Shown: positions 21,538 through 56,500 of the stretch, piece by piece
Layout of the letters: the number at the start of each line of letters is the position of its first letter
Numbering within the stretch: position 1 is the first letter of the stretch
Source: Amycolatopsis albispora
Lineage (GTDB): Bacteria > Actinomycetota > Actinomycetes > Mycobacteriales > Pseudonocardiaceae
Assembly: GCF_003312875.1 (NCBI RefSeq)
Contig: NZ_CP015163.1
Coordinates: 8,742,001-8,806,000, forward strand
DNA length: 64,000 bases
Direction: 5' to 3'
The notes under the pieces: generated by a model
Told to the model about the DNA's origin: nothing
The model's database searches: none
What the model saw: the letters and a program-made list of their open reading frames with translations, nothing else
Made by a program: the position numbers and the translations under genes

Positions 21538-21590
21538 GTCACGAAAGCCACATTCGAGACGGCGAACGTCCCGAAAGCCACATTCGTGAC
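21538..21590. repeat. Palindromic repeat, copy C (GTCAC subtype, one core inverted)
   Basis: The outer GTCAC (21538-21542) and GTGAC (21586-21590) and the inner GAGACG / CGTCCC are inverted as in other copies. The 13-base core is GAAAGCCACATTC in both arms (21543-21555 and 21573-21585), so it is a direct repeat instead of inverted. One core has been flipped in place. Confidence 0.85.
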
Positions 21591-53729: not shown

Positions 53730-53822
53730 GAACACGAATGTGGCTTTCGGGGCGAAATCCGCCCGCCCGTCGCCCACCGCCACCCTCAATGGAGCTGCGC
53801 GCGGTGTCTATTCGAAAGCCAC
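53730..53822. repeat. Palindromic repeat, copy H (GACAC subtype), split by IS110
   Basis: GAACACGAATGTGGCTTTCG (53730-53749) is the left arm. The right arm is split: CGAAAGCCAC at 53813-53822 and ATTCGTGTTC at 55111-55120 on the far side of the IS110 element. Joined, the right arm is the exact complement of the left over 20 bp. The loop is unusually long (63 bases, 53750-53812). Confidence 0.85.
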
Positions 53823-53839
53823 TCAGTGTCAGGGTTGGT

Positions 53840-54030
53840 GTGGCCGCTCGTGGTGGGCGGTTAGGGTCCGGTCTTGATCGCGTGGTGACTCTGAAAGCCA
53901 CTGCCGTTGCTGGCTTGCGAACGAATTGTCCAGCGTGATCAAGGTCCGGGCCTGGCTGGCCTGACTTGATAGAAGCGTGGGCATACGCCATCAACCTCGA
54001 CTGAGGTGTGTCCGACCAGCCCGGCCCGGA
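53840..54030 (+). ncRNA. Candidate bridge RNA of the IS110 element
   Basis: Three hairpins are visible. A short 5' one has CCGC/GCGG (53844-53860). The second has a 10-bp stem, CTTGATCGCG (53873-53882) with CGTGATCAAG (53934-53943); its loop holds GAAAGCCACT (53893-53902), identical to the left target flank, and ACGAAT (53921-53926), complementary to the right flank ATTCGT. The third has a 12-bp stem with one mismatch (53948-53959 with 54016-54027). Its loop holds ATAGAAGC (53969-53976), identical to the right end of the element, and ACTGAG (54000-54005), complementary to CTCAGT at the left end. This matches the target and donor loops of known bridge RNAs. Confidence 0.65.
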
Positions 54031-54069
54031 AAAGACGCATGTTCTCCGGCTAGGGAAGGAACACACGCG

Positions 54070-55098
54070 GTGTCCATGGTGGTCATTGGCATCGATCCGC
54101 ACAAGTCCAGCCACACCGCGGTCGCGGTCGATCAGACCGGCCGCCGCCTGGGGCAGAAAACCGTGACCGCCGACCCCGACGGGCTGCTGCGGCTGCGGTC
54201 CTGGGCCACCCAGTTCGGCACCGGGCCGCGCTGGGCGGTCGAAGACGGCCGCGGCGTGGCCGGGCGACTGGTCCGCACCCTGATCGGCACCGGCGCCACC
54301 GTGGTCTGGGTCCCACCCAAACTGATGGCCGCCTGCCGCGCCAGCGCCCGCACCCGCGGTAAATCCGACCCGATCGACGCCCTGGCCATCGCCCGCGCCG
54401 CCCTGCGCGAACCCGACCTGCCCACCGCACACCTGGACCAGACCGCCCTGGACCTGCGCCTGCTCTCCGACCGGCGCGAACACCTGGTCAACCGCCGCAC
54501 CGCCAGCATCAACCAACTGCGCTGGCACCTGCACGACCTCGACCCCGCCCTGGACCAGACCCACCCCCGCCTGACCGGGCCCCGCGCCCAGCACACCCTC
54601 ACCACCGCCCTGTCCACCCTGCCCGCCAGCGTCCGCCGCGACCTCGCCCTGGACCTGCTCACCGAGATCACCACCCTGACCCAGCAGATCACCCAGCTCG
54701 AACACCAACTCCGCACCCGAGTCCAGCCCCTGGCCCCCACCCTGCTGGCCATCACCGGCGTCAGCACCGTCCTCGCCGCGAAAATCATCGGCGAAACCGC
54801 CGGCATCACCCGCTTCCGCTCACCCGCCGCCTACGCCATGCACACCGGCACCGCACCCATCCCCACCTGGACAGCCAACAAACCCCACTACCGCCTCAAC
54901 CGCGGCGGCAACCGCCAACTCAACACCTGCCTCCACCGCATCGCCATCACCCAACTCACCCACCACCCACCCGCCCGCACCTACCGCGACAACTGGACCA
55001 AACACCACCCCCACGCCACCACCAAAGCCGCCCTCCGCGCCCTCAAACGCCACCTCGTCAACACCATCTACCGAGCACTCACCACCGACCTCACTTGA
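54070..55098 (+). CDS. IS110-family transposase (DEDD recombinase)
   Basis: 342 residues from GTG 54070 (ATG 54076 possible) with an AAGGAA site upstream. The N-terminal RuvC-like DEDD domain has VIGIDPHKSSHTAVAVD, RWAVEDGRG and GKSDPIDALAIARAAL. The C-terminal Tnp domain has ITGVSTVLAAKIIGETAGI, AYAMHTGTAPIP and RLNRGGNRQLNTCLHRIA. In most relatives a catalytic serine follows G-T-A-P-I-P (e.g. W-S-G); here the aligned residues are T-W-T-A, so a threonine (~268) may replace it. The gene is unusually rich in CAC and ACC codons. Confidence 0.9.
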   Translation: MSMVVIGIDPHKSSHTAVAVDQTGRRLGQKTVTADPDGLLRLRSWATQFGTGPRWAVEDGRGVAGRLVRTLIGTGATVVWVPPKLMAACRASARTRGKSDPIDALAIARAALREPDLPTAHLDQTALDLRLLSDRREHLVNRRTASINQLRWHLHDLDPALDQTHPRLTGPRAQHTLTTALSTLPASVRRDLALDLLTEITTLTQQITQLEHQLRTRVQPLAPTLLAITGVSTVLAAKIIGETAGITRFRSPAAYAMHTGTAPIPTWTANKPHYRLNRGGNRQLNTCLHRIAITQLTHHPPARTYRDNWTKHHPHATTKAALRALKRHLVNTIYRALTTDLT

Positions 55099-55202
55099 CA
55101 TAGAAGCTTCATTCGTGTTCGGTGCGCCCCGGTGAGCGGCCCCCGGCGAGCGCGCGCCGAGGCCGCATCGGGCCGCGAGGCTCACTCCGCGGGGTGGCCA
55201 AG

Positions 55203-55217
55203 TGTCACGAATGTGGC
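55203..55217. repeat. Palindromic repeat, copy I, left part (split by IS30)
   Basis: TGTCACGAATGTGGC is the outer part of the left arm. The last four bases, TGGC, are repeated at 56438-56441 beyond the IS30 element. Confidence 0.85.
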
Positions 55218-56437
55218 GCGGGCTCAAGCGGTGGTTGCAACGGGGGACTGTCCGGACAGTACTCGGTTGAGGGATTGGGCTGGGGTGAGCCAGCCCAGGG
55301 TGTGGCGGGGGCGTTCGTTGAGTTCGGCGGCGACGGCGGCGAGGTCGTCGGCGGTGTGCCTGGTCAGGTCGGTGCCTTTGGGGAAGTACTGGCGGAGCAG
55401 GCCGTTGGTGTTCTCGTTGGTGCCGCGTTGCCAGGGTGAGTGCGGGTCGCAGAAGTAGATGGCCATGTCGGTGGCCAGGGTGATCTCGGCGTGGCGGGCC
55501 ATTTCGTTGCCGCGGTCCCAGGTCAGCGAGCGTCGCAGCTGGGCGGGCAGGGTGGTGATGGTGGCGATCATCGCGTCGCGGACGTGCTCGGCGGTGTGAC
55601 CGTGGGGCAGGTGCAGCAGCAGCACGAACCGGGTGGACCGCTCCACCAGCGTCCCGATCGCGGAGCTGTTGCCGGCGCCGAGGATCAGATCGCCTTCCCA
55701 GTGCCCGGGCACCGCGCGGTCGGCGGCCTCGGCCGGGCGCGCCGAGATCGGGATCGGGCCGGGCAGCCGGGGCGGCAGGTGGCGGCGGGCCTGGCCGCGG
55801 GGACGGCGCAGCGCCCGCCCGGTCCGCAGGCACGCGGCCAGCTCACGCCGTAACGCGCCCCGGCTCTGGACGTAAATGGCCTGGTAGATCGTCTCGTGCG
55901 ACACCCAACGCTCCGGCTGATCGGCAAAAGCGAGCTTGCGCGCGGCCGCGATCTGCCCGGGCGACCACCGCTTCTCCAGCCGAGTCTGCACCCACGCCCG
56001 CAGCCGGGCGTCAACAGCCAGCTTCACCGGTTTCGGACGCCGCGCCCGCACCCGCGCCGCGCTGTCGGCAACCACCGCCCGATACGCCACCGGCCCACCA
56101 TGACGAGCCACCTCCCGGCTCACCGTCGACGCCGCCCGCCCCAGCCCCCGAGCGATCCTGCGCAACGACCACCCCGCACACAACCCCCGCGAGATCTCCT
56201 CCCGCTCAGCCAACGACAAATACCGCCCGCCCAGCGCACACGGCGCGTTCCCGATCACCCCACCAGCCTGCGCGAACCACCGCCGCCCCGTCTCATGCGA
56301 CACACCCGCCAACCCCGCCGCCGGCCGCACCGCCCACCCCGCCCGCACCAACCCCCAAAACCGCACCCGAACATCACGACCCAGCACCATCACAACTCCC
56401 ATCAACAAGGGTGTTGCAACAACCACTGGAATCCACC
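55218..56437 (-). mobile_element. IS30-family element inserted in palindrome I
   Basis: 1220 bases flanked by the direct repeat TGGC (55214-55217 and 56438-56441). The ends are imperfect inverted repeats; the inner part matches best, AGCGGTGGTTGCAAC on the left against AGTGGTTGTTGCAAC on the right read inward. Size and duplication length fit the IS30 family. Removing it restores a 27-bp palindrome with one mismatch. Confidence 0.85.
55224..56390 (-). CDS. IS30-family transposase
   Basis: 388 residues from ATG 56390 (ATG 56402 also possible). The N-terminal helix-turn-helix region is LSLAEREEISRGLCAGWSLR with RIARGLGRAASTVSREVARH, typical for IS30. The DDE catalytic residues fit D in GHWEGDLILG, D in LTWDRGNEMARH and E in RGTNENTNGLLRQYFPKG. 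The frame fills almost the whole element and is intact, so the element may be active. Confidence 0.9.
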   Translation of the reverse strand: MVLGRDVRVRFWGLVRAGWAVRPAAGLAGVSHETGRRWFAQAGGVIGNAPCALGGRYLSLAEREEISRGLCAGWSLRRIARGLGRAASTVSREVARHGGPVAYRAVVADSAARVRARRPKPVKLAVDARLRAWVQTRLEKRWSPGQIAAARKLAFADQPERWVSHETIYQAIYVQSRGALRRELAACLRTGRALRRPRGQARRHLPPRLPGPIPISARPAEAADRAVPGHWEGDLILGAGNSSAIGTLVERSTRFVLLLHLPHGHTAEHVRDAMIATITTLPAQLRRSLTWDRGNEMARHAEITLATDMAIYFCDPHSPWQRGTNENTNGLLRQYFPKGTDLTRHTADDLAAVAAELNERPRHTLGWLTPAQSLNRVLSGQSPVATTA

Positions 56438-56482
56438 TGGCTTTCGAGACGTCAAACGTCCCGAAAGCCACATTCGTGACAC
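56438..56482. repeat. Palindromic repeat, copy I, right part (GTCAC subtype)
   Basis: TGGCTTTCGAGACG, the loop TCAAA, then CGTCCCGAAAGCCACATTCG and TGACAC. Together with the left part it restores a GTCAC-type palindrome. It lies 18 bases after the stop of the SDR gene. Confidence 0.88.
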
Positions 56483-56500
56483 TTCCGGCCGCGCGCCGGG

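Follow-up and report, generated by a model that had tools for sequence, protein, structure and literature searches.

An IS110-group element inside a dispersed hairpin repeat

The window analysed here, a 64,000-nucleotide stretch of Amycolatopsis albispora (assembly GCF_003312875.1, contig NZ_CP015163.1, positions 8,742,001 to 8,806,000), contains an insertion sequence (IS) of the IS110 group that is 1288 bp long, runs from TCAGTG to GAAGCTTC and interrupts a dispersed hairpin repeat (Table 1). A preliminary description of this DNA had proposed that a bridge RNA is encoded in the non-coding 5' part of the element. The recombinase encoded downstream has a DEDD RuvC domain (PF01548, 1.3e-28) and a Transposase_20 domain (PF02371, 3.1e-14), both found with Pfam, and the residues D9, E58, D100 and D103 are kept in 119, 120, 120 and 120 of 121 aligned proteins, a set that consists of the window's protein and the best 120 of 7,974 matches. 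Its fold is nearest to ISCro4 and IS621, that is, to the fold of the solved bridge recombinases. In searches of the PDB, the single sequence returned ISCro4 as the sole match, a weak one (E 0.0016), and a profile returned ISCro4 and IS621 together with a weak match to 1nt2 chain B (E 0.0062). With 247 bp of left end before the GTG at 54070 and a right end reaching 12 bp past the stop codon, the element has the layout of the IS110 group and not that of IS1111.

The genome harbors eight full-length copies, the window copy included, with zero to three base differences from the latter, and their ends are certain except for one ambiguous C. All eight are inserted at CGAAAGCCAC/ATTCG (the slash marks the insertion point), and in all eight the joined flanks form the 15-mer CGAAAGCCACATTCG, which is found uninterrupted 646 times in the genome (327 and 319 times on the two strands; zero and zero for the reversed control). 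The window has 15 occurrences. Joining the flanks restores the empty site exactly, so no target duplication was produced; insertion was sequence-specific and without duplication in every copy. The 15-mer forms one arm of a hairpin repeat whose stem measures about 25 bp, and 12 of the 16 distinct pairs of neighbouring 15-mers encountered at 30 sampled loci lie 30 bp apart in opposite orientation. Of 80 genomes of the genus, 32 contain the 15-mer when any base is allowed at position 10, some of them with just one or two occurrences.

The eight copies (L001-L008) form four pairs of identical sequence, the members of each pair residing at two distant sites, which would fit a single recent move by each lineage. 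The 15-bp arms of the hairpin at the window's own site are 63 bp apart (53750-53812), compared with 15 bp in the usual copies with 30-bp spacing. One arm flipped, leaving both pointing in the same direction, was seen in two of 14 sampled 30-bp pairs (at 21542 and 21572 in the window, and in the flanks of copy L004); the 15-mer ends in CGAA/TTCG, so that such a flip leaves the flanks unchanged.

Table 1. Features of the element and its insertion site, in window coordinates
Feature	Position	Strand	Evidence
Opposite arm of the same hairpin repeat, intact	53735..53749	-	Repeat occurrences in the window
Left half of target repeat, CGAAAGCCAC	53813..53822	+	Flank comparison, sampled repeat loci
Whole IS110-group element	53823..55110	+	Ends from eight same-genome copies and uninterrupted repeats
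CAGGGT, -10-like box in left end	53830..53835	+	21 of 22 distinct junctions have xAxxxT here
Bridge RNA (predicted)	53834..54025	+	Covariance model R1, 206.6 bits
5' stem-loop	53841..53863	+	Fold z -0.87; 7 of 7 model pairs vary on both sides, 89.6% of cells paired
Target-binding loop	53873..53943	+	Fold, consensus, covariation; inner GCC/GGC hairpin
Left target guide, GAAAGCCAC	53893..53901	+	9/9 to left flank in 8/8 copies; covaries in sisters
Right target guide, CGAAC	53918..53922	+	Complement GTTCG against target ATTCG, 4/5; register from sisters
GAAT, handshake/core segment	53923..53926	+	Faces right end CTTC, 3/4; covaries with right end
Donor-binding loop	53954..54021	+	Fold, consensus, covariation
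Putative left donor guide, ATAGAAGC	53969..53976	+	Identical to right end 55100-55107
Putative right donor guide, ACTGAG	54000..54005	+	Complement of CTCAGT spanning the left end; sequence match
DEDD recombinase reading frame	54070..55098	+	Start GTG 54070 or ATG 54076; Pfam, profile match, fold
TTGACA, -35-like box in right end	55095..55100	+	In the rejoined circle 17 bp from CAGGGT
Right half of target repeat, ATTCGTG	55111..55117	+	Flank comparison, sampled repeat loci

Structure of the predicted bridge RNA

Three parts make up the consensus fold of seven close sister elements, including the window's: a 5' stem-loop, a target loop that contains an inner GCC/GGC hairpin, and a donor loop. 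In the window the target loop is closed by the 10-bp stem CTTGATCGCG/CGTGATCAAG (53873-53882 and 53934-53943), as the preliminary description had it. The donor-loop stem, GGCTGGCCTGAC/GTCCGACCAGCC (53954-53965 and 54010-54021), had been given as 12 bp; the 12 positions are present, but only 10 of them pair in the consensus. Folding, which had been suggested as a check, likewise agrees in part: the target and donor loops are stable for their composition (z -3.08 and -4.01, with none of 200 shuffles as stable), whereas the 253-nt stretch as a whole (z -1.74, 7 of 200 shuffles as stable) and the 5' stem-loop are less so.

The match of the covariance model built from the seven sequences (R1) to the window exists by construction, because the window sequence belongs to the model; independent backing comes from relatives outside the model and from the covariation of the pairs. 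At an E-value of 1e-4, R1 matches 12 of 80 genomes of the genus and 37 of 390 genomes of the family, counting those that supplied model sequences. The 78 matches in the 77 sources searched (46 distinct rows) pair in 91.9% of cells, and 45 of the 53 base pairs have changes on both sides, that is, compensatory change. The structure has a covariation score of 0.437, whereas shuffles give 0.168 and structures slid along the alignment no more than 0.099; the alignment was fitted to the structure, which favours the structure, but a difference of this size does not come from the fitting alone. A search of Rfam at the gathering score gave no match in the window.

The four strings on which the bridge-RNA proposal was built are in place: GAAAGCCACT occupies 53893-53902 and ACGAAT 53921-53926, and ATAGAAGC and ACTGAG are the donor guides of Table 1. 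Chance expectations were estimated from 5000 dinucleotide shuffles of the left end (53836-54069). The left target guide, taken as a 9-mer, was matched by 5 of these and the 8-nt left donor guide (any 8-mer within the last 14 bases of the right end) by 26, compared with 198 for ACGAAT, the right target guide as first drawn, and 924 for the 6-nt right donor guide (any of four six-letter windows), which is not significant alone. The left guides exceed chance on their own and the right ones hardly or not at all; it is therefore the comparison with the sisters that decides.

Guides and targets change together among sister elements

A recognised left end was present in 65 of the 78 model matches, and 62 of these, representing 27 guide types and 53 distinct sites, were used; L122, L053 and L097 were left out, with the guide pattern at the wrong place or a weak match. 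Right ends were also sought in ten longer or other loci. Two were found: that of L153 is the end already known from L092, and that of L043, a locus on the same contig as L121, was used for L121 only in the closest-clade and register counts. The strict motif recovered none in the other eight, and these loci therefore contribute no right-end data of their own.

Allowing the best of four shifts, the left guides of the 27 types match their own targets at 8.10 of 9 positions, and permuting the guides lowers this to 4.81. The right guide, read in a fixed register in 22 types, matches at 4.46 of 5 positions (1.91 permuted); the four letters that follow it in the target loop match the right end of the same element at 3.50 of 4 (2.19 permuted). 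None of 20,000 permutations reached any of these values. The same holds within the closest clade of nine guide types (left 8.72 of 9 against 5.74, right 4.37 of 5 against 2.50; none of 20,000 permutations), in which the scaffold around the guides is conserved while the loop strings follow the flanking target. In a Prauserella element, for example, the guides CACGGTGCC and CTTGG accompany the sites CACGGTGCC/CTTCG and CACGGTGAC/CTTGG; other elements combine AAATGTGGC and GTGCT with the site AAATGTGGC/GTGGT, or GAATGACGT and ATTCA with GAATGACCC/ATTCA. The outcome that the preliminary description had named as refuting, other targets with loops that stay the same, was thus not observed: sisters with other targets have loops that changed along with them. 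Four copies in genome G343 (L092, L101, L107 and L111) lie at CAAATGTGGC sites and have the left guide AAATGTGGC; three of them have no right end recognisable by the motif within about 2.6 kb.

Because guide and target change together in the relatives, we place the element among the already known RNA-guided IS110 recombinases, of which it appears to be a well-supported new actinobacterial member. We consider it highly probable that its bridge RNA guides insertion to the hairpin repeat. The earlier proposal of an RNA-guided IS addressed to a genomic repeat is upheld by the covariation in the sisters.

Several observations weigh against this reading, in addition to the chance level of the right donor guide. 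In all eight copies the right target guide mismatches target position 10, and the perfect target GAAAGCCACGTTCG does not occur in the element's genome. The left match requires a shift of 0-3 nt between elements; some rows are weak, with 6 of 9 matches on the left (L087, L133, L142 and L145) or 3 of 5 on the right (L052, L064, L087, L116, L148 and L149). The relatives share ancestry, so the permutations are not fully independent, the R1 E-values are rough, and 13 of the 78 matches have no left end that fits the motif used. The recombinase, moreover, carries Thr268 in place of a serine that is essential in IS621. A native target with a perfectly matching GTTCG was considered and rejected for this genome; CGAAAGCCACGTTCG does occur in another genome of the genus (G107).

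Alternative explanations

The preliminary description had paired ACGAAT with ATTCGT as right target guide, and a bridge RNA with this register would make six perfect pairs in the window element, compared with four of five in the register taken from the sisters. Over 37 sites, however, the mean is 2.08 of 6 for the ACGAAT register and 4.24 of 5 for that of the sisters. The former does not hold in most sisters, although it scores 5 of 6 in L075 and L121, where the guide likewise starts with ATTCGTTC. Three letters of ACGAAT belong to the GAA that is fixed in close sisters and faces the element's own right end. The complement of the loop happens to read ATTCGTTCG, which is why ACGAAT fits the window's target, and it represents a slip of 4 nt on the TTCG repeat; we regard this register as quite unlikely and use CGAAC. 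Another possibility is that the protein itself recognises the hairpin repeat, with the left end acting as a structured leader that regulates expression and the matching strings arising by coincidence. This would agree with two of the four guides being near or within chance alone, but it is very improbable in view of the loop strings that follow the target in the nine closest guide types around a conserved scaffold. One could also assume that the copy of the target in the left end is a remnant captured by nested insertion or gene conversion, as GAAAGCCACT is identical to the left junction, just as a captured junction would be. Such a remnant should not follow the target, which is not the rule among the sisters; in 27 guide types the match keeps a constant position within the target loop, with the right half on the complementary strand, across the conserved inner hairpin. 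We assign hardly any probability to this explanation.

More weight can be given to the possibility that all eight copies are dead relics that were moved by a helper with serine, since lost. Thr268 (54871-54873) aligns in the profile with Ser241 of IS621 (chain position 243; the offset of 2 is deduced from D11) and is present in all eight copies. Ser241 forms the covalent link to DNA in IS621, and its mutation abolished activity, according to the available part of PMC11208158. In the 121 aligned proteins described above, however, the column contains 97 serines, 23 threonines and one gap. The frames of the copies are open, their sequences are at most three bases from the window copy, and no full-length copy with serine is among the genome matches listed (E up to 1e-60, seven candidates scored; a more distant helper was not sought). 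Threonine keeps the hydroxyl of serine, and because eight threonine copies occupy eight cognate sites, Thr268 is probably competent; the relic explanation is unlikely. Two copies in genome G169 have alanine in this column. The word threonine does not occur in the available text of the two IS621 papers (PMC11208160, PMC11208158), and titles and the beginnings of abstracts of the papers listed, a weak coverage with subscription papers mostly outside it, yielded no threonine nucleophile in an IS110 recombinase.

Comparison with known systems and proposed cycle

The closest known system is IS621, an IS110-group element of E. coli. As far as the available text of PMC11208160 and PMC11208158 goes, it too has a left-end RNA with a 5' stem-loop followed by the target loop and the donor loop, left guides on the bottom strand and right guides on the top strand, a junction promoter, and insertion into repetitive extragenic palindromes; the recombinases have the same fold. 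This is the guide logic that the preliminary description had invoked. The GAAT of the window, which faces the right end CTTC, has a likeness in the IS621 handshake guide (PMC11208158, in the part available). The two elements differ in that identity is about 21% in the aligned structure, the window protein has threonine at the Ser241 column, and the window's left donor guide stops before the core.

A further difference concerns the core itself. IS621 has CT in both target and donor; here AC precedes the cut in the target and TC in the donor end, which leaves at most one core base, the C, common to both. The element is therefore not filed as IS621-like with a CT core. The core dinucleotide, which the preliminary description could not fix, is narrowed but not fixed: target and donor have at most this one nucleotide in common. 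A fixed two-base core was rejected by eye, target position 9 being C or G in most sister rows.

The bridge recombinase of ISCro4 (PDB 9t56), compared by protein alone, is alike in fold, again with about 21% identity. The IS110-family elements ISPpu9, ISPpu10, ISPa11 and ISRm19, which reside in REP sequences, also target a dispersed palindromic repeat, according to the accessible part of PMC1525189, although their repeats and hosts are others.

When the ends are joined, they give TTGACA-17-CAGGGT, a sequence pattern in agreement with the promoter re-formed in the IS621 circle (PMC11208160, available part). The -35 part exists partly by construction, because the right ends were found by a motif starting with TTGA, and TTGACA was prefixed by the script; every right end printed in the search begins with TTGACA. 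These data are consistent with a cycle in which the recombinase would excise the element as a circle, and the promoter formed by the joined ends would transcribe a bridge RNA of about 190 nt. Once bound by the recombinase, its donor loop would pair with the element's own joined ends, while GAA(T) of the target loop, facing CTTC of the right end, would after exchange pair with the donor strand that comes in, in the manner of the IS621 handshake guides. Target and donor DNAs would then recombine conservatively after GAAAGCCAC, without target duplication. The anatomy, the covariation of the structure and of guides with targets, and the target fidelity of all eight copies are observed; transcription, RNA binding and catalysis are deduced.

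Target classes among the sisters

The sisters are not confined to hairpin repeats. Among 29 loci of the TAGGAG type, 19 have ATG or GTG at the place of the right guide. In one subgroup, with right ends finishing in AAC or CAC, the right guide meets ATG or GTG in 18 of 19 loci (the exception is L053); in the same 18 a TANNNT starts 12-14 nt upstream of the start codon, and the frame is open for at least 80 codons. The guides of these sisters (L093, L103, L108, L112, L114, L116, L102, L126, L050, L066, L067, L095, L056, L057 and L146-L149) match both the -10-like box and the start codon, and a Pfam domain was found in each of ten downstream frames chosen by hand from the 18. A spacing of 12-14 nt between TANNNT and start codon is typical of leaderless promoters in actinobacteria, which these sites resemble. 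The right end of this class places AGGAG, a Shine-Dalgarno-like motif, about 6 nt before the start codon, and insertion would therefore give a leader to a gene that had none. The nearest printed precedent encountered for the start-codon sisters is IS900, an IS110-family element of Mycobacterium with the target motif CATGNNNNNNTCTCCTT; according to the available part of PMC8141618, that motif pairs CATG with a CTCCTT stretch, whereas the sisters pair a -10-like box with the start codon. The reference list of that paper includes a 1997 title by Doran on translation initiation signals. In titles and abstract openings of the papers listed, where coverage was weak and most subscription papers lay outside, we found no IS110 element aimed at leaderless promoters.

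A different subgroup has the left guide GAGAACACG or a similar one, aimed at the NENT/NGLLR codons of IS30-type transposases. Both halves were found in three of seven loci (L080, L150 and L152). By eye, L096 has the right half only, and L132 and L136, in which no right end was found, have the left only; in L151 the left side shows just ENT and the right side a different sequence. In six of these seven loci the recognised left-end motif or part of an end is missing.

The opinion is evenly balanced on a broader proposal: that within a single actinobacterial IS110 clade the bridge-RNA scaffold stays constant while the guides are exchanged among those for hairpin repeats, -10 boxes with start codons, and codons of IS30-type transposases, that insertion at start codons makes leaderless genes led, and that the window element uses a threonine nucleophile. 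The additional interest of the system is in its sister guide classes, the lack of a common core dinucleotide, and the threonine. Judging from the start-codon sisters, mobile RNA guides may be directed at promoter signals as well as at repeats. With one scaffold and many guides, the natural sisters amount to a table of bridge-RNA and target pairs that comes from high-GC actinomycetes and is remote from the E. coli systems. This table fixes the register of the right guide and indicates that the spacing between left match and cut varies by 0-3 nt, that target and donor need no common core dinucleotide, and that target loop and donor end agree over four letters; the Thr268 variant offers a way to test whether serine is required.

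The window contains a second interrupted copy of the hairpin repeat. An IS30-type element (reading frame 55224-56471, minus strand) breaks this copy at 55200-56484; the arms at 55200-55217 and 56467-56484 are exact complements, and TGGC is present on both sides of the insertion.
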